From contig JAXKVY010000003.1 of NCBI GenBank assembly GCA_036172455.1, positions 62,001-126,000 of the forward strand: a DNA stretch of 64,000 nucleotides. Reading direction: 5' to 3'. The first letter of the stretch is position 1; each line of letters opens with the position of its first letter. Shown in pieces: positions 3,127-60,544 of the stretch. The notes under the pieces were generated by a model. The model worked only from the letters and a program-made list of their open reading frames with translations. It searched no databases and was not told the origin of the DNA. The translations under genes were made by a program, and so were the position numbers. The DNA is from Candidatus Izemoplasma sp. GTDB taxonomy: Bacteria > Bacillota_I > Bacilli_A > Izemoplasmatales > Izemoplasmataceae.

Positions 3127-3330
3127 ATGGGAAAAAAGAAAAAGAAAAAGAAAGTGCTCTGTCCGTGTTTTAAAATCACGAAACAGGATGTAAAAGAGCA
3201 CATTAGAAACGGTGTTACAACGTATCAAGAATTACAAAAATTAACGATGATTGGAACGAAGTGTTCCTCTTGTAAAAAGAAAACCAAAAAGAAATTTAAA
3301 AAGTACAAAGAGAAATTAGGCGCAAATTAG
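3127..3330 (+). CDS. Small lysine-rich BFD-like [2Fe-2S]-binding protein
   Basis: This 67-residue protein has CPCFKITKQDV near residue 12 and CSSCKKK near residue 45, giving a CXC...CXXC layout like bacterioferritin-associated ferredoxin (Fer2_BFD) domains. Roughly a third of the residues are lysine, including runs at both ends, so contact with RNA, DNA or polyphosphate is conceivable. It lies 74 bases after the MEMO-AMMECR1 fusion and about 40 bases before the exopolyphosphatase. It may supply electrons to the radical SAM enzyme, but that rests only on position. The domain call is good and the role is open. Confidence 0.65.
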   Translation: MGKKKKKKKVLCPCFKITKQDVKEHIRNGVTTYQELQKLTMIGTKCSSCKKKTKKKFKKYKEKLGAN

Positions 3331-12494: not shown

Positions 12495-12499
12495 AGACT

Positions 12500-12757
12500 A
12501 AATTGTTGAGTAGAAGTGAGTAAAGTTATTTGAACTTCATAGAGAGTCAGTGGTTGGTGAAAACTGATAAGTAATGATAACTTGAATGGGTCTACAAGAG
12601 GGTATCAGAATCAAGTATGATATCACGGGAGCTCCCGTTATAGAGCTAGGATATGATAGTATCTGAACAAGGACTTTTTTGTAAAGTTAAATTTGAGGTG
12701 GCACCACGTTAGTTAATAACGTCCTCTACACGGTTATTTGTGTAGAGGACTTTTTTT
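12500..12757 (+). promoter_or_regulatory. T-box leader, probably tRNA-Trp responsive
   Basis: The leader carries the conserved distal Stem I region AGAGAGTCAGTGG (12541-12553) with GGTGAAAAC. A candidate specifier TGG lies at 12587-12589 within CTTGAATGGG, and the T-box sequence GAGGTGGCACCACG at about 12695-12708. A GTCCTCTACA / TGTAGAGGAC terminator with seven Ts follows at 12721-12757. Uncharged tRNA bound at the specifier would stabilise the antiterminator and allow trpB transcription. UGG fits the downstream gene but is assigned by position, not by a computed fold. Confidence 0.88.
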
Positions 12758-12864: not shown

Positions 12865-14046
12865 ATGAAAACACAATTTGGACGATTTGGAGGACAGTTT
12901 GTTCCTGAACCAGTCATTAATGCATTAAATCAAGTAGAGGCAGCTTTTTTAGAAGCGAAAGAGGATCCTAAATTTATTGAAGAATATAAATATTATTTAA
13001 AACAATATGTTGGACGTCCATCACCCATTTACTATGCAGAGAATTTAAGCATGAAGTATGGTGGTGCAAAGATTTATCTAAAACGTGAAGATTTAAATCA
13101 TACCGGAGCACATAAAATTAACAATACGATTGGACAAATTTTATTAGCTAAGCGTATGGGTAAAACTAAAATTATAGCTGAAACAGGTGCTGGTCAACAT
13201 GGCGTTGCCACAGCCACTGCCGCCGCAATGTTTGGCATGGAATGTGAGATATTCCAAGGCGAAATCGATACCCAACGACAGCGCTTAAATGTTTTTCGTA
13301 TGGAGATGCTGGGTGCTAAAGTAACACCTGTAACAAGAGGAACAAAAACATTGGCGGATGCAGTAGATAAAGCGATAGAAACGTGGGTAGGACGTATTGA
13401 TGATACGTTTTACTTATTAGGAAGTGCTGTTGGTCCACATCCTTACCCTGAGATGGTGAAATTCTTCCAGAAAGTTATTGGTGAAGAAGCTAAAAAACAA
13501 TTGCTTGATGTCGAGAATACTTTACCTGATTACTGTATAGCATGTGTTGGTGGAGGCTCTAATGCGATTGGATTATTCACAGACTTTTTACAACATGATG
13601 AGGTCTCATTAATTGGTGTAGAAGCAGCTGGGAAAGGATTAGATACTAAAGAGCATGCTGCTACACTTACCCTAGGTAAAGAAACAGTGATTCACGGAAT
13701 GAAGACTAAATCAGTCTTAGATGAAGAGGGTAATATTAGCCCTGTTTATTCAATTAGTGCAGGATTAGATTATCCTGGTGTTGGCCCAGAGCATGCTTAT
13801 TTACAAGATATAAAACGCGCAACTTATGAATCAGTCACAGATGAAGAGGCAGTCAATGCATTTTTAGAATTGTCTCGTCTTGAAGGGATTATACCCGCTA
13901 TTGAATCAAGTCATGCGGTTGCGTACGCAACGAAGTTTGCTAAAACATTATCGAAAGATCAGATTATACTTGTTAACTTAAGTGGTCGCGGTGATAAAGA
14001 CGTTGAAGCAATTGAAGACTTTTTAAATAAAAGACAAGTAAACTAA
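12865..14046 (+). CDS. trpB: Tryptophan synthase beta subunit
   Basis: A 393-residue PLP enzyme that joins indole and serine to make tryptophan. The PLP lysine is in [13 protein letters not shown] near residue 85, the phosphate loop is [10 protein letters not shown] near 230, and [10 protein letters not shown] and LSGRGDKD are present, so this is the TrpB1 type. No trpA or other trp gene is adjacent, so it may salvage indole or pair with genes elsewhere. It is preceded by a Trp T-box and a consensus promoter and followed by a 200-base gap with a terminator. Confidence 0.95.
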
Positions 14047-27987: not shown

Positions 27988-28188
27988 ATGAAACCATACT
28001 ATACACTTAAAGACATTATGGAAATCACAAGATTATCAGAACGGACAATTAGAAGATACTTAAAACAAGGGAAACTAAATGGTGATAAAATAGGAAAAGA
28101 ATGGCGTTTTCAAGAAGAAGACGTCAAACAACTTTTTGATAATATTGACTTTTCATCACAAATTAGCTCCTTAGCTAACAAAAGGTAA
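27988..28188 (+). CDS. Excisionase/MerR-type HTH DNA-binding protein
   Basis: A 66-residue protein. YTLKDIMEITRLSERTIRRYLKQG, residues 5-28, followed by GDKIGKEWRFQEEDV, is the HTH_17 (excisionase family) pattern: helix-turn-helix then wing. No integrase is present, so this is more likely a small regulator than a phage factor. A 10-bp inverted repeat overlaps its leader. The next small gene starts 45 bases downstream and is probably co-transcribed. Confidence 0.8.
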   Translation: MKPYYTLKDIMEITRLSERTIRRYLKQGKLNGDKIGKEWRFQEEDVKQLFDNIDFSSQISSLANKR

Positions 28189-28232
28189 AACGATTTATTG
28201 AAGGAAATTATGAAAAGAAGGAGGCCCACCGT

Positions 28233-28529
28233 ATGTTAAGCATGTTTGATATTGAAAACCTCTCAAAGTCACAAATTGAGAGTACCAAAATGATGTTGAT
28301 GCGCATCAGCAACCAACATAATAATATTGATATGAAGTTTAATACAAAAAATGATAAAACACGAATCACATTAATAGGCAACATTGAATACATTGATGAA
28401 TGCATCTCAGAATTAAAAAAATTATGGCTTAAAAGGTCTTATCTAAGGCCTTTTTTTATTTTTTTAAAAAACGATAAAAAAATTTTAACGAAACTATTGA
28501 CAAATCGTAAAAACAGCATTAAAATATAA
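28233..28529 (+). CDS. Small protein whose frame runs through a terminator
   Basis: ATG 28233 follows GAAGGAGG. The first 65 residues are polar and plausible; the last 33 are coded by a terminator hairpin and its T tract and look like noise. One extra A in the A7 run at 28415-28421 would end the gene at TAA 28430-28432 (ELKKIMA), exactly at the terminator. The true product is therefore probably about 68 residues. It lies 45 bases after the HTH gene. No family is recognised. Confidence 0.55.
   Translation: MLSMFDIENLSKSQIESTKMMLMRISNQHNNIDMKFNTKNDKTRITLIGNIEYIDECISELKKLWLKRSYLRPFFIFLKNDKKILTKLLTNRKNSIKI
28432..28460 (+). terminator. Intrinsic terminator
   Basis: AAAGGTC-TTATCTAA-GGCCTTT with one G-U pair, then a T-rich tract. 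Confidence 0.75.
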
Positions 28530-28573
28530 TTGACGATAAAAAATATTTAACGTTAATAAAAGGAGGTGACATC

Positions 28574-28654
28574 ATGTTAGTATATACATCTTATGACTTT
28601 GAAAGAGATACAAACGAGTACAAAACTAAAAGAGAAATTTCAAAAAATAAGTAA
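28574..28654 (+). CDS. 26-residue microprotein
   Basis: ATG 28574 sits six bases behind the perfect AGGAGGTGA. It codes MLVYTSYDFERDTNEYKTKR and ends in EISKNK, then TAA. The tail EYKTKRE recalls the YKTDRSKYKK end of the microprotein at 36921, though this is too short to prove homology. The strong ribosome-binding site is the main evidence that it is translated. Confidence 0.5.
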   Translation: MLVYTSYDFERDTNEYKTKREISKNK

Positions 28655-34779: not shown

Positions 34780-35208
34780 ATGCGTTATACATATGAAACG
34801 AAGAAAGTTATTAAACGTAACCGTAGTGAAGTTCTTGATGCATTTTTGGATTATGATAATATGCATGAATGGCAACCTTCATGATGTCGTGTTGAGTTGA
34901 AAGAAGGAGCATATCGTAAAGCCGGGCATCTTGTGCAGTTAACATATCTAGCTGAAGATGAGTCAACGTTTACAATGAATGAGACTATCCTGGAAATGCA
35001 CCTACCACATAAAATCATTACTCAGTATCAAATGGGGACGGTTGTCAATACACAAACAAATTACTTTGAGCATTACGGGGCAGACACCTTATGGATTGTA
35101 GAGACTATCTTTGATTTTAAAGAGGAACCGGAATATAATGAGATGGCTTTTCAGCGTAAAACGCGTAAAGGTATGACTCAATTTAAACGCTACGTCGAGG
35201 GATTATAA
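34780..35208 (+). pseudogene. SRPBCC-fold protein interrupted by in-frame TGA
   Basis: ATG 34780 follows AGGAGGC and a TATAAT. After 34 codons (ending EWQPS) a TGA stands at 34882-34884, and the same frame continues without interruption for 107 more codons with typical START/polyketide-cyclase-like strands (EGAYRKAGHLVQLTYL; NYFEHYGADTLWIVETIFDF). Full length would be 142 residues, a normal single-domain SRPBCC size. TGA is a stop in all other genes here. No SECIS-like hairpin follows. A nonsense mutation or an error is most likely. Confidence 0.75.
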
Positions 35209-35337: not shown

Positions 35338-36330
35338 ATGAAGACCATTATTAATCATTCAAAAGATCCGAGATTCAATTTAGCGTTAGAAGAATACGTC
35401 TTAAAGTATTTAGATACAGATGAAGATTTTGTCTTACTTTGGCAAAATGAAAATAGTGTTATTATAGGACGAAATCAAAATACGGTTGAAGAAATTCATG
35501 CTGACTACATCAAACAACACAATGTAAATGTTGTTCGGCGGATCACCGGGGGTGGGGCAGTATACCACGATCTAGGCAATTTAAACTTTTCATTTATTAC
35601 CAAAAACTTAAAAGACAATTTGAATAACTATCGCAAGTTCACCGATCCTGTAATCAAAGCGTTAAATAGTCTAGGTGTTCCAGCAGCGTTTGCTGGCAGA
35701 AATGACATTGTTGTCGAAGGTATGAAAGTTAGTGGTAATGCACAGAGTTATTATAAAAATAAGATGCTACATCATGGGACAATCTTATTTGATGTGAATC
35801 TTAAGATGATAGCCGATGTTCTAAATGTGAAAAAAGCGAAAATTGAATCTAAAGGGATTAAATCAAATAGAGCACGAGTAACAAACATAAAACCGTACCT
35901 TAAAAAACAAGTGACTGTTGAAGAGTTCGAAGAGCAATTACTGAAATATCTATTAGATACAACAGACATTAGTAAATATGTTTATGAGTTATCTCAAGAT
36001 GACCTAAAGAAAATATATACACTCATGGAAGAAAAATATGCAACATGGGAATGGAACTATGGAGCATCTCCAGAGTTTTCGATGGAAAAAGTCAGACGAT
36101 ACAAAGGTGGAGTACTTGAGTTTAAATTCAATGTTAAGGATGGAACGATTACAAACTTGAAAATATATGGTGACTTTCTAGGCTCAAAAGATTTAACTGA
36201 ACTTGAAGATGCATTAATTGGAACTAACTATGAAGAAGAAAATGTTAGAAAAGTCTTAGCGCCTATGAATGTGTCTGAATATTTCTTTAATATAACATTA
36301 GATGATGTGGTAGACTGTTTATTTTATTGA
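35338..36330 (+). CDS. lplA: Lipoate-protein ligase A
   Basis: A 330-residue enzyme that activates lipoate with ATP and attaches it to 2-oxoacid dehydrogenase E2 or GcvH. RRITGGGAVYHDLGNLNFSF near residue 65-85 and AGRNDIVVEGMKVSGNAQ near 120 are the lipoate and AMP binding motifs; the C-terminal 80 residues are the accessory lid domain, so this is the two-domain self-sufficient form. AGGAAGA precedes ATG 35338. It indicates dependence on salvaged lipoate. Confidence 0.93.
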   Translation: MKTIINHSKDPRFNLALEEYVLKYLDTDEDFVLLWQNENSVIIGRNQNTVEEIHADYIKQHNVNVVRRITGGGAVYHDLGNLNFSFITKNLKDNLNNYRKFTDPVIKALNSLGVPAAFAGRNDIVVEGMKVSGNAQSYYKNKMLHHGTILFDVNLKMIADVLNVKKAKIESKGIKSNRARVTNIKPYLKKQVTVEEFEEQLLKYLLDTTDISKYVYELSQDDLKKIYTLMEEKYATWEWNYGASPEFSMEKVRRYKGGVLEFKFNVKDGTITNLKIYGDFLGSKDLTELEDALIGTNYEEENVRKVLAPMNVSEYFFNITLDDVVDCLFY

Positions 36331-36332
36331 TT

Positions 36333-36353
36333 AAAGACCTTCGGGTCTTTTTT
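36333..36353 (+). terminator. Intrinsic terminator after lplA
   Basis: AAAGACC-TTCG-GGTCTTT followed by more Ts. Confidence 0.9.
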
Positions 36354-36560
36354 TATGGTTTAAAAACCACTTTAATATAAATAAAATTAATTAATAAATC
36401 AATAAAATTAACTATTACATTAAAAAAATTAAAATTTATTTCAAAATTTCCTTGATAAAAATAAATATACTTGATATTATTAAATTGTAATTAAGAAATA
36501 TCAACATAGATATTAAAAATATTAACTATAAAATATAAAATAATAAAAGGTGTGAAACAG
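36354..36560. other. Very AT-rich leader of the microprotein cluster
   Basis: About 200 bases composed largely of A and T, with direct ATTAA/TATTAA repeats and several TATAAT-like boxes near 36530-36545. No gene is seen. It is presumably the promoter region for the three microprotein genes. Confidence 0.5.
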
Positions 36561-36662
36561 ATGTTTAATCAATTAGAACAAATTTGTCAACACAATGAGT
36601 ATCAAGAAAAAGTCCAACAAACAGAATCATATTTTAATAATACTCGAAAAGCTCAAAAATAA
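36561..36662 (+). CDS. 33-residue microprotein, copy 1
   Basis: ATG 36561 is ten bases behind AAAAGGTG. Starts MFNQLEQICQHNEYQEKV and contains QQTESYF. It aligns without gaps to the next microprotein at 36759: M(F/Y)..LE.I.QH..Y.EKV.Q.E.Y. The residues are mostly polar and helix-favouring. This shared pattern in two adjacent tiny frames is evidence that both are real and related. No known family. Confidence 0.65.
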   Translation: MFNQLEQICQHNEYQEKVQQTESYFNNTRKAQK

Positions 36663-36758
36663 AACAATTATTTAAATCTTCATATTTTGTAACTGCGTAA
36701 AATAGATTACTAAGCGAGTGTAGGAATGGGTCTTATAGTAAAAAAAAGAGGAATCATA

Positions 36759-36863
36759 ATGTATTATGAATTAGAATTAATACATCAACATGATGTTTAC
36801 ACAGAAAAAGTTGATCAAGCAGAACGATATATGAAGCAACGAGATAATCAATTACAACATTAA
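36759..36863 (+). CDS. 34-residue microprotein, copy 2
   Basis: ATG 36759 lies behind AAGAGGAA. Starts MYYELELIHQHDVYTEKV and contains DQAERYM. At least 14 of the first 25 positions match copy 1, while the DNA between them differs, so the pair seems to be an older duplication kept under selection. Probably a single amphipathic helix. Unknown role. Confidence 0.65.
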   Translation: MYYELELIHQHDVYTEKVDQAERYMKQRDNQLQH

Positions 36864-36920
36864 AAGTATATTACGAAGTATATGTAATGAATGTATAACA
36901 TAAAAAAGAGGGAGGGTATC

Positions 36921-37034
36921 ATGTATAAAATTGATTTATCATATATTGTATCAATGGAAGAACATAAAAAGTGGGTTAAAGAAACTACCACTTACAAAAC
37001 TGACAGATCAAAATACAAGAAACAAAAAAGATAG
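36921..37034 (+). CDS. 37-residue basic microprotein
   Basis: ATG 36921 follows the strong GAGGGAGGG. Starts MYKIDLSYIVSMEEHKKW and ends in a run of lysines and arginines (SKYKKQKR). Only weakly like its two upstream neighbours (M-Y start, similar length, E/K-rich middle). It is the last of three tandem tiny genes and is followed by a weak terminator-like hairpin. Confidence 0.6.
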   Translation: MYKIDLSYIVSMEEHKKWVKETTTYKTDRSKYKKQKR

Positions 37035-37062
37035 CTTATAGTTTATTGTTGGCAATCTTTTT
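37023..37062 (+). terminator. Weak terminator-like hairpin
   Basis: AAAAAAGAT pairs with ATCTTTTTT across about 20 bases, overlapping the end of the third microprotein gene. Confidence 0.45.
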
Positions 37063-37149
37063 TAATGTAATAATGTTAAACGGTATTAATTCGTGTTATA
37101 ATATTTAGTGAATATTTATGATTTTGGTTAATAACATTAAGGAGATTTT

Positions 37150-38286
37150 ATGCAAGAATTTGAATGTATCGCAACAACCTCTTTTGGTTTGGAAGCTGTA
37201 TGTAAACGAGAACTTATAGACTTAGGATATAAAATTAAAAAGACTGAAAATGGCAAGATCACATTTTTAACTGATAAAGCAGGCATCGCAAGAGCTAACA
37301 TGTGGTTAAGAAGTGCGGATCGTGTGCTTTTGAAAATGGATGAATTTAAAGTTTTAACATTTGCCCAGTTATTTGATAAAATTAATCAAATTGATTGGCA
37401 TAAGGTAATTGATAAAGATGGTAAATTTACTGTATTAGCAAAAAGTGTGAAGTCAAAATTGTTTAGTTTATCAGATGTTCAATCAATTACTAAAAAAGCA
37501 ATAGTTGAAGAGATGAAAACACATTATAATACCCAGTGGTTCGATGAAAAAGGTGCTTTATTTACTGTATTAGTATCTATTCTAAAAGATAAGGCAACAG
37601 TGACTATTGATACAAGTGGAGATGGCTTACATAAGCGTGGATATCGTGTTCAATCGGTTAAAGCACCACTCAAAGAGACGCTCGCAGCCTCCTTGGTATT
37701 ATTAAGTTTTTGGCAAAAAGATCGTGTACTTTATGATCCCTTTTGTGGTTCAGGAACAATTCCGATAGAAGCGGCAATGATTGGACTAAATATCGCGCCG
37801 GGACTAAATCGTGATTTCGCCTCTAAACATTGGAGTTGGATGGGCAAATCATTATGGAAAGAGATTTCGAGAGAAGCTTTTAAAGCAATTGACCAAGATA
37901 CTAAACTAGAGATATATGCATCCGATCTAAATGAAGAAAGTTTGAAAGCTGCACAAGATAATGCATTTGAAGCTGGAGTTGATGAACATATAATTTTTAA
38001 ACGCGGTGATGCAAGAAAGCAGGCCTATAATAAACCATATGGTATTATCATTACAAATCCACCTTATGGTGAGAGATTATTAAGTGAACAATCCATCAAT
38101 AGCTTATATAAGGATATAGGTAAGCTCTACAAAAGTTTAGATACGTTTTCTATTTACCTCATTACCAGCAGTAAAGAATTTGAAACGCTTTACGGAAAGA
38201 CATCAAATAAACGCCGTAAACTGTATAACGGAAATATCGAAACGTGGTTCTATCAATATTATGGGCCACGTCCACAAAACGGGTAG
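37150..38286 (+). CDS. THUMP-domain class I RNA methyltransferase (RlmL/YpsC-like)
   Basis: A 378-residue enzyme. An N-terminal ferredoxin-like/THUMP region (1-165) binds RNA, followed by a Rossmann methyltransferase with DPFCGSGTIPIEAAMIG near residue 200 and the base-flipping NPPYGERL near 300. It resembles the m2G-forming domain of 23S rRNA methyltransferase RlmL and B. subtilis YpsC. AAGGAG precedes ATG 37150. The CDF gene starts 9 bases after its stop. Confidence 0.9.
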   Translation: MQEFECIATTSFGLEAVCKRELIDLGYKIKKTENGKITFLTDKAGIARANMWLRSADRVLLKMDEFKVLTFAQLFDKINQIDWHKVIDKDGKFTVLAKSVKSKLFSLSDVQSITKKAIVEEMKTHYNTQWFDEKGALFTVLVSILKDKATVTIDTSGDGLHKRGYRVQSVKAPLKETLAASLVLLSFWQKDRVLYDPFCGSGTIPIEAAMIGLNIAPGLNRDFASKHWSWMGKSLWKEISREAFKAIDQDTKLEIYASDLNEESLKAAQDNAFEAGVDEHIIFKRGDARKQAYNKPYGIIITNPPYGERLLSEQSINSLYKDIGKLYKSLDTFSIYLITSSKEFETLYGKTSNKRRKLYNGNIETWFYQYYGPRPQNG

Positions 38287-57993: not shown

Positions 57994-58020
57994 AGATCAG
58001 CCAAAGCTGATCTTTTTTAT
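57992..58020. terminator. Bidirectional terminator
   Basis: AAAGATCAGC-CAAA-GCTGATCTTT with Ts on both strands. Confidence 0.9.
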
Positions 58021-59585
58021 TGCCCACTTTTACCATAGTTTGATAATACACGCGCACTAGGATCGGATACTTTACATCCTTCCCATGATTTATTTGGCAT
58101 CCAATAGTCTTTTATGAGATGACTATGATTAGGATAATATTGATCGAAAATTTCACGATAGAGTAGTGCTTCTTTTGAAAGGGGGATTGGGGCATAATTC
58201 AACCGTTTTTGCTCGTAAGCTTGATCTGTATAATGTGCGTTCGCATAAGCTTTTAATTCATCCACAAGAGAATGCCCAACCGCATCTGAAAAAGCCGCTT
58301 TTTCTCGGTATAATATAGAATGTGGTAGATAGTCATTTGAATCGAATGCTTTACGTAAAATGAACTTACCTGTTTGATATTTATTCATTTTAAACAAAGG
58401 ATTAATTCTTAAGACGTATTGGGCAAAATCAGGATCTCCAAACGGAACTCTAGCTTCTAGAGAGTTCGCCGCCAAACATCGATCTGCACGTAAGACATCA
58501 TACATATATAGTTCCTTCACCCGTTTAATACTCTCTTCTTGAAATGCCTCTTTACTTGGCGCAAAGTCAGTATACTTATAACCGAATAGTTCATCACTAA
58601 CTTCCCCTGTTACTAACGCTTTGATAGAAGTGTTTTGATGTATATGTTTAGCTAATAAATACATACCTATGCTTGCTCTAATCGTTGTGATGTCATAACT
58701 TTCAATAGCGTAAATCACAGATTCTAATGCATCAATAACATCCTCTTTAGTCATTGTTACTTCGGTATGATCAGTTCCAAGATATTCAGCGACTTGTTTC
58801 GCATATTTTAAATCTATTGGATCTGTATCCATACCGATACTGAATGTTTTAATAGGTGCTTTTGTATACTTTTGAGCAATGGCACAAACTAAAGATGAAT
58901 CTAAGCCTCCACTCAGTAAAAATCCTAATGGAGCATCACTTATTAGTCGTTTTCTAACCGCAGCAACAAGTTTATCGTGAATGCTATTTGTGATATCTTC
59001 AAAGAAATGGGTATGATAATGGGAGATTTGTGTTAAATCACTGTATTCAATAAAACGCCCATTTAAGTAATAAAACCCTGGTGGAAAGGGGATCACTTTT
59101 TTTACGTGGGGTAACAGTGCTTTTACCTCACTCGCAAACATGATAGCGCCATCTTTTTGATGGTACCCATAAAATAATGGCCGAATCCCGATAGGATCTC
59201 TAAAAGCAATTAACATATCTTTCTTTGCATCATACATCACTGAGGCAAATTCACCGTCAAGATAATCAATAAAATTAATTCCAAGCGCCTCGTATAGGGG
59301 GAGCAATATTTCACAATCAGAATGTGATTTAGGTGTGAAATCTGATAGGTCATTAAGTAACGACTGATTGTTATATATTTCTGCGTTTGCGACAAGAATA
59401 GAATCCCCATGATAAAAGGGTTGGTTACCGGCCTCGGAAAGACCCATTATGGCAAGTCGTGTAAACCCAAACTGATAGGTATGAAACCGCTCAATTTGTT
59501 GTGTATCTGGTCCACGTTTCATTAAAACTGTTAAATCATCTTGTGTTAGTGGTTCTTGTGAAGTACTGACAATAATTCCGCACAT
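58017..59585 (-). CDS. asnB: Asparagine synthase (glutamine-hydrolysing)
   Basis: A 522-residue AsnB. The Ntn nucleophile is Cys2 (MCGIIVS), glutamine-binding residues follow in the first 180 residues, and the ATP-pyrophosphatase loop SGGLDSSLVCAIAQK lies near 225. It makes asparagine from aspartate, glutamine and ATP. ATG 59585 is chosen over TTG 59588 because Met removal must expose Cys2; AAGGAG lies upstream. A T-box with AAC specifier precedes it, matching the product. Confidence 0.95.
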   Translation of the reverse strand: MCGIIVSTSQEPLTQDDLTVLMKRGPDTQQIERFHTYQFGFTRLAIMGLSEAGNQPFYHGDSILVANAEIYNNQSLLNDLSDFTPKSHSDCEILLPLYEALGINFIDYLDGEFASVMYDAKKDMLIAFRDPIGIRPLFYGYHQKDGAIMFASEVKALLPHVKKVIPFPPGFYYLNGRFIEYSDLTQISHYHTHFFEDITNSIHDKLVAAVRKRLISDAPLGFLLSGGLDSSLVCAIAQKYTKAPIKTFSIGMDTDPIDLKYAKQVAEYLGTDHTEVTMTKEDVIDALESVIYAIESYDITTIRASIGMYLLAKHIHQNTSIKALVTGEVSDELFGYKYTDFAPSKEAFQEESIKRVKELYMYDVLRADRCLAANSLEARVPFGDPDFAQYVLRINPLFKMNKYQTGKFILRKAFDSNDYLPHSILYREKAAFSDAVGHSLVDELKAYANAHYTDQAYEQKRLNYAPIPLSKEALLYREIFDQYYPNHSHLIKDYWMPNKSWEGCKVSDPSARVLSNYGKSGQ

Positions 59586-59603
59586 CAAATCAACTCCTTA
59601 TTA

Positions 59604-59826
59604 ATATTAAAAAAAGCCCGCCCCAATATGGGACGGACTATTGTCCGCGATACCACCCAAGTTGCATGAAAATCACGCCACTTAACATGATAACGGAATG
59701 ACCGGCTATATCTACTATTATTTCGATACAGCAACTCATAGGTGTTCAGAATATCTGCTTATTTATCTAGCTCTCACCATCCTAGACTCGCTTTAAAACA
59801 GGGAAGATACCTGGTGTCCTAATCAT
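59604..59826 (-). promoter_or_regulatory. T-box leader, tRNA-Asn responsive
   Basis: On the minus strand: AGCGAGTC and GGATGGTGAGAGC distal Stem I region, candidate specifier AAC at 59746-59744 (TCTGAACACC), T-box GGGTGGTATCGCGG at 59658-59645 and a GTCCGTCCC / GGGGCGGGC terminator with seven Ts (59639-59610). AAC codes asparagine and agrees with asnB. It fills almost the whole 243-base gap after livF. No clear promoter is seen in the gap, so it may act on read-through from the liv operon or on a promoter inside livF. Confidence 0.9.
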
Positions 59827-59830
59827 CGTT

Positions 59831-60544
59831 TTATGCGCTTAAATATGCTTCTTTAATTTTATCATCGTTTAATAAATCTTTAGACTTACCTGATAATGTA
59901 ATCTTACCTGTTTCTAACACATAGGCTTTATCAGATATGTGTAACGCTTGATTAGCGTTTTGTTCAACAAGTAGAATCGTTGTACCTGCCTCATTTATTT
60001 CACGAATGATATCAAATATATCTTTTACCAAGATAGGGGCTAGACCCATAGATGGCTCATCTAGTAATAAAATTTTCGGATGACTCATTAAAGCTCGTCC
60101 TATCGCAAGCATTTGTTGCTCACCACCGGATAAAGTCCCAGCGATTTGATTGAGGCGCTCTTTAAGTCTTGGAAAACGGATGAACACTCGTTCTAAATCC
60201 GACTTAATCTTGGCTTTATCTTTACGGTAATATGCCCCCATTTCAAGATTTTCTAGCACTGTTAAATCGGGAAAGACATGACGTCCTTCAGGCACATGAG
60301 AAACACCAATATGGACAACATCATGTGCCTTGTAGTTACTTAATGAGTTTCCTAAAAAGGTGATATCACCATCACTTTTATCAAGTAATTGTGATATGGC
60401 TTTTAAAATCGTTGTTTTACCCGCGCCATTTGAACCAATTAATGTGACAATGTCACCTTCGTTAACTTCAAATGAGACGCCTTTAATGGCGTGTATCACA
60501 CCATAGTGTACATGTAAATTATCTACTTTTAACATTTTACTCAC
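59831..60544 (-). CDS. livF: Branched-chain amino acid ABC transporter ATP-binding protein LivF
   Basis: A 237-residue ATPase. Walker A GSNGAGKTT near residue 38, SHVPEGRHVFPDLTV near 83, signature LSGGEQQMLAIGRAL near 137, Walker B ILLLDEPSMGL near 158 and switch LLVEQNA. The PEGRHVF block is typical of LivF. It overlaps livG by 8 bases. Confidence 0.95.
   Translation of the reverse strand: MSKMLKVDNLHVHYGVIHAIKGVSFEVNEGDIVTLIGSNGAGKTTILKAISQLLDKSDGDITFLGNSLSNYKAHDVVHIGVSHVPEGRHVFPDLTVLENLEMGAYYRKDKAKIKSDLERVFIRFPRLKERLNQIAGTLSGGEQQMLAIGRALMSHPKILLLDEPSMGLAPILVKDIFDIIREINEAGTTILLVEQNANQALHISDKAYVLETGKITLSGKSKDLLNDDKIKEAYLSA

Follow-up and report, generated by a model that had tools for sequence, protein, structure and literature searches.

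A tandem cluster of short genes, apparently encoding helical microproteins, conserved in two species of one Izemoplasmatales genus

Bacterial proteins of only 25-50 aa can work as adaptors or inhibitors, as several known examples do, and the Bacillus proteins Sda, MciZ and SpoVM, all under 50 aa, are small proteins that bind a partner. The phenol-soluble modulins are helical peptides of 20-25 or 43-45 aa (PMC12607899), and the multi-peptide leaderless bacteriocins listed in PMC6131525 comprise three to four peptides of about 27-34 aa. One cultured Izemoplasma-like, wall-less bacterium, with a genome of 1.96 Mb, is able to degrade DNA (PMC8397711); an endonuclease I gene is present in the window (that is, the whole 64,000-nucleotide stretch of Candidatus Izemoplasma sp. 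DNA analysed here).

Three very short frames, A, B and C, follow one another in this window between the gene for a lipoate-protein ligase (lplA) and an rlmL-like gene (Table 1). An earlier reading of the DNA letters (the sequence-only reading) had placed three frames here, of 33, 34 and 37 codons and each behind a ribosome-binding site of its own, and this was borne out in every position. Each begins with an ATG after a purine-rich ribosome-binding site, the Shine-Dalgarno-like sequences being aaaaggtgtga for A, aagaggaa for B and gagggagggt for C. A small-frame screen of the window, covering the approximately 12% of it that lies outside ORFs of at least 90 aa, gave eight ATG frames of 15-70 codons with a Shine-Dalgarno match, among them A, B, C and a more distant frame, D. 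The terminator behind lplA, the sole terminator-like site that a scan reported in the region, has an identical stem-loop in the sister species described below and appears to set the cluster apart from the upstream gene. The candidate promoter lies some 100 bases past this terminator; its counterpart in the sister species, TTGACA-N17-TAATAT, also has the TG, and the two genomes share the TATTAAATTGTAATTAAGAAA stretch behind it letter for letter. Such a pattern on its own is a consensus match, the scan giving 13 such sites where shuffles lead one to expect 9.1. After C, the window has only a weak counterpart of the stem-loop seen in the sister species, and the terminator scan reports none there. 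At the locus itself, where the neighbours are lplA and rlmL, no transporter, immunity, exporter or mobile gene adjoins the cluster.

Table 1. Positions (in the window) of the cluster, its surroundings and the separate gene D
Feature	Position	Strand	Description
Microprotein gene D	28574-28654	+	MLVYTSYDFERDTNEYKTKREISKNK (26 aa); preceded by AAAGGAGGTGA
lplA (lipoate-protein ligase)	35338-36330		Pfam PF21948 + PF10437; upstream neighbour of cluster
lplA intrinsic terminator	36333-36350	+	AAAGACCTTCGGGTCTTT then T run
Candidate cluster promoter	36452-36480	+	TTGATA-N17-TATTAT, TG before -10 (extended -10)
Microprotein gene A	36561-36662	+	33 codons + TAA; MFNQLEQICQHNEYQEKVQQTESYFNNTRKAQK (33 aa); G002 homologues A1, A2
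Microprotein gene B	36759-36863	+	34 codons + TAA; MYYELELIHQHDVYTEKVDQAERYMKQRDNQLQH (34 aa); paralogue of A; G002 homologue B2
Microprotein gene C	36921-37034	+	37 codons + TAG; MYKIDLSYIVSMEEHKKWVKETTTYKTDRSKYKKQKR (37 aa), basic; G002 homologue C2
Possible weak terminator after C	37028-37068	+	Our reading; G002 has GATAG...CTATC + T run
rlmL-like gene	37150-38286		UPF0020 + THUMP; downstream neighbour of cluster

When relatives were searched at the DNA level, the cluster turned up in one genome of the same genus, G002, on contig JAASSV010000118 (record label "Bacillales bacterium isolate KhS_metabat.25"), where it again lies between lplA and rlmL, with the terminator and promoter also matching. 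Here there are four frames, A1 (33 aa), A2 (35 aa), B2 (44 aa) and C2 (38 aa), A being present in duplicate. Between the species, A is 73% identical to A1 and 55% to A2. Among the 26 N-terminal residues, A1 and A2 have 22 in common, whereas A shares 19 with A1 and 18 with A2; as the two G002 copies are thus closer to each other than to A, it appears that A was duplicated in the G002 lineage or that an older second copy was lost in the lineage of the window. In the window, a stretch between A and B that might be a remnant of A2 was unconvincing (48 of 1000 shuffles did as well). B and B2 have 17 of their first 26 residues in common and differ at the C-terminus (34 aa against 44 aa), a difference that could reflect sequencing error or real decay. 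C and C2 agree at 68% of positions and do not differ at all over their first 14 residues.

The comparison of these two species, on which the selection evidence for A, B and C is based, argues that the cluster is kept by purifying selection within one genus and that it is the proteins rather than the DNA that are preserved. Nei-Gojobori counts gave dN/dS values of 0.15-0.28 where computable (A-A1 0.28, A-A2 0.16, C-C2 0.15); for B-B2 and A1-A2 dS was saturated, with pN of 0.21 and 0.17, respectively. In a coding test, the same base changes were re-placed at random positions 5000 times and the resulting protein similarity was scored: P was 2e-4 and 4e-4 for A-A1 and A-A2, in that order, 2e-4 for both B-B2 and C-C2, and at most 4e-4 for A1-A2. 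The flanking genes have a dN/dS of 0.04, so the constraint on the microproteins looks looser. Within the window, A against B gives a weaker signal (P = 0.006, dN/dS 0.52), as expected of an old duplication. The sequence-only reading had named two outcomes that would speak against it, frames without conservation in close relatives and substitutions without a codon-position bias; neither was seen, the cluster being at the same place in G002 and the changes between species respecting the codons. On this evidence A, B and C are real protein-coding genes, too short for routine gene finders.

The paralogy claimed for the first two frames stood up well: their BLOSUM62 score is 64 against 23.8 +/- 4.5 for shuffles (z = 8.9, none of 2000 reaching it), and the two agree at 13 of their first 26 residues. 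The corresponding pairs of G002 give z values of 9.4 and 11.5, again with none of 2000 shuffles as good. A and B are, on this evidence, paralogues. Over the five A/B copies eight residues are invariant (M1, H11, Y14, E16, K17, V18, E22 and Y24), and position 9 is occupied by Cys in the A type (A, A1, A2) and by His in the B type (B, B2), giving [Cys/His]-x-His in all five. The third frame and the 28574 frame had been thought weakly similar to this pair; both are genuine genes, but the similarity found no support in the comparisons. A-C gives z = 3.3, but B-C only 0.6 and B2-C2 -0.5, and the hhalign probability for C is 1.8%; putting them all into a single profile is circular. Sequence comparison of D with A or B against shuffles showed no homology, and a relationship of D to C is not supported either (z 0.6-1.5).

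D is found at the same place in the genomes G001 and G002, with 77-81% identity to the window copy and coding-test P values of at most 8e-4 for its pairs, and is a separate, genuine gene, conserved in three species; a match in G043 proved spurious. On either side of its promoter-like site are two near-identical, near-palindromic boxes, CGATAAAAAAATTTTAACG and CGATAAAAAATATTTAACG (28472-28490 and 28534-28552). Similar boxes occur at the same place in G001 and G002, and the window has no further ones at up to three mismatches (0.15 expected). The two boxes resemble a pair of operators, which may serve one of the two helix-turn-helix regulators encoded on either side of D. A helix-turn-helix regulator gene at 27988-28529 (HTH_17 by Pfam in G002) has an intact frame in G001 and G002, whereas single-base length differences near 28185 and 28430 break up the copy in the window, which may be a pseudogene or the product of sequencing errors.

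Nearer to the cluster, a Polyketide_cyc2/AHSA1-like gene at 34780-35208 has an in-frame TGA where G002, in which the gene is intact, has a Leu codon. As lplA ends with TGA in the window and with TAA in G002, TGA is apparently an ordinary stop and the gene looks interrupted. Two window genes are thus interrupted where their relatives are intact, which suggests either sequencing errors or real decay in the window; none of the frames A, B, C and D is broken. Elsewhere in the window, a 67-aa gene with a poly-Lys start (3127-3330) encodes a BFD-like [2Fe-2S] protein (Pfam PF04324, E = 4.5e-11). Two T-box leaders score above the gathering threshold: one (12497-12729, plus strand) precedes a tryptophan synthase beta-like gene at 12865, the other (59626-59835, minus strand) an asparagine synthase-like gene at 58017-59588, both gene families being read from sequence.

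The distribution of A/B and C is extremely narrow. Among 100 relatives searched with profiles, A/B and C were both confined to the window genome and G002. The same held for a search of 90 genomes of the order, the other 88 of them having neither. No A/B was found in 394 other genomes of the class, a sample without G002. A weak match to C in G068 is a frame that runs through stops. There was no A/B or C in viral contigs, no A in a phage collection and no C in a plasmid collection, while in a collection of genome contigs only the G002 contig matched. Nor did the other genomes examined have similar frames ahead of rlmL or behind lplA. Of the two further genomes of the genus, one is 53% complete, with a different gene before rlmL and no lplA match, and the other is distant, its rlmL being 58% identical; within the genus, then, the spread has been seen in two genomes only. 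Pfam, NCBIfam, PHROGs, PADLOC and the PDB gave no credible match, the best in PADLOC having E = 0.009 and covering one end of a 244-position model.

All of the products are hydrophilic (GRAVY -1.08 to -1.59; pI 5.4 to 9.8), with no hydrophobic stretch able to span a membrane. In the best 18-residue helical moment, 19-69% of shuffled sequences do as well as A, B, C and their homologues, whose mean hydrophobicity is near 0. AlphaFold2, from input alignments of only five and two rows for A and C, respectively, predicts one helix for A (mean pLDDT 84.1, pTM 0.37) and a single helix of lower confidence for C (mean pLDDT 67.5); isolated helices often get fair pLDDT values. We read the Asn or Asp at position 12 in A/B, and Ser11-x-x-Glu14 in C, as resembling helix caps; a short helical hairpin would then be possible too. 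The products are probably soluble and helical, and the suggestion of an undescribed family of small helical proteins is supported by the lack of a known family match and the helix predicted for A, the model of C being of low confidence. Among the roles on which the sequence-only reading had speculated, the toxin and membrane types are disfavoured by this composition, and a regulatory one is still compatible with it.

The role that we consider the most likely, although only tentatively, is that of soluble cytosolic microproteins that modulate a larger partner. A, B and C would be co-transcribed from the one conserved promoter-like site and then translated, giving cytosolic products, each a single helix or tiny helical hairpin, that would bind a larger protein or complex and modulate it as adaptors or inhibitors. 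For proteins that appear soluble, charged, helical and moderately constrained, with invariant residues, such a partner-modulating function seems the best explanation, and the eight residues invariant in A/B suggest that an interaction surface has been kept. Duplication and divergence of A/B may supply variants for different partners or conditions, with C a co-expressed basic protein of separate origin. It may further be that A/B founds an undescribed, genus-restricted microprotein family, with the core [Cys/His]-x-His-x2-Tyr-x-Glu-Lys-Val and growth by tandem duplication, that forms a co-evolved regulatory set with C and the 26-residue D, a broader proposal that we regard as doubtful.

Other explanations have to be weighed against modulation of a partner. 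The [Cys/His]-x-His, with nearby acidic or Asn residues or through dimerisation, might form a metal site, making A and B small metal- or thiol-handling peptides. Position 9 does keep a residue that is a possible ligand in either form, next to an invariant His11; yet two ligands two residues apart would fall on different faces of a helix, A/B has no third invariant Cys or His, the motif is absent from C and D, and the argument draws on only five sequences, so that we find this unlikely. Rather less probable still is an origin from a phage or mobile element, with the cluster as cargo for host modulation, toxin-antitoxin or counter-defence functions. The very narrow distribution of A/B and C and the change in copy number would suit such cargo, and a review describes phages as carrying many such small proteins (PMC11323111); the searches of viral contigs (for A/B and C), phages (for A) and plasmids (for C), PHROGs and PADLOC nevertheless gave no credible match, and the neighbours are housekeeping genes between which the cluster keeps its position in both species. 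Finally, the region could function as RNA, a small RNA or a leader, the frames being incidental or mere regulatory uORFs. Although the leader is long and AT-rich and the predicted fold of the transcript, taken from its presumed start, is slightly better than those of shuffles (z = -1.49), the substitutions respect the frames, there are three to four of these with their own ribosome-binding sites, and no Rfam family matches (best E = 0.76, far below the gathering score); we give this reading very little credence indeed.

Secreted membrane-active peptides, of the kind of the phenol-soluble modulins or the multi-peptide leaderless bacteriocins, would account for a layout in which paralogous genes, short and leaderless, stand in tandem, each behind its own ribosome-binding site, but we think this highly improbable for A, B and C. 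The phenol-soluble modulin operons of staphylococci also have paralogous genes in tandem, likewise short and leaderless, and encode helical peptides. Those peptides, however, are amphipathic and are exported by a dedicated ABC exporter, whereas the cluster products are hydrophilic, with helical moments no better than those of shuffles, and no exporter or immunity gene adjoins the locus. In the number of tandem leaderless short genes, three in the window and four in G002, the cluster resembles aureocin A70, garvicin KS and the cereucins, which have three or four. The multi-peptide bacteriocins listed in PMC6131525 are nonetheless cationic, with pI values of about 10 or more (above 10 against 5.4-9.8 here) and GRAVY near or above 0 (0.004 to 0.7 against -1.08 to -1.59). 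The same hydrophilic composition is not that of a type I toxin, a short hydrophobic membrane-spanning peptide. Another mark of type I toxins is an antisense RNA that overlaps or adjoins the gene; Rfam gave no match here.

Frames far below the limits of gene calling can thus be recognised in raw sequence and confirmed with a single sister genome. A/B, C and D add unannotated protein families to a little-known lineage and are clear targets for proteomics, and tandem paralogues that change in copy number offer a small test case for the origin and diversification of orphan microproteins. The cluster has the short frame, ribosome-binding site and conservation at the protein level by which bacterial small proteins are recognised as a kind, rather than as a homologous family. 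It is most like the lineage-specific members of that kind under 50 aa, such as Sda, MciZ and SpoVM, in size, in having its own ribosome-binding sites, in having been missed by annotation and in the predicted single helix or hairpin. The likeness is one of kind, implying no relation in sequence, and what sets the cluster apart from Sda, MciZ and SpoVM is its tandem paralogues.
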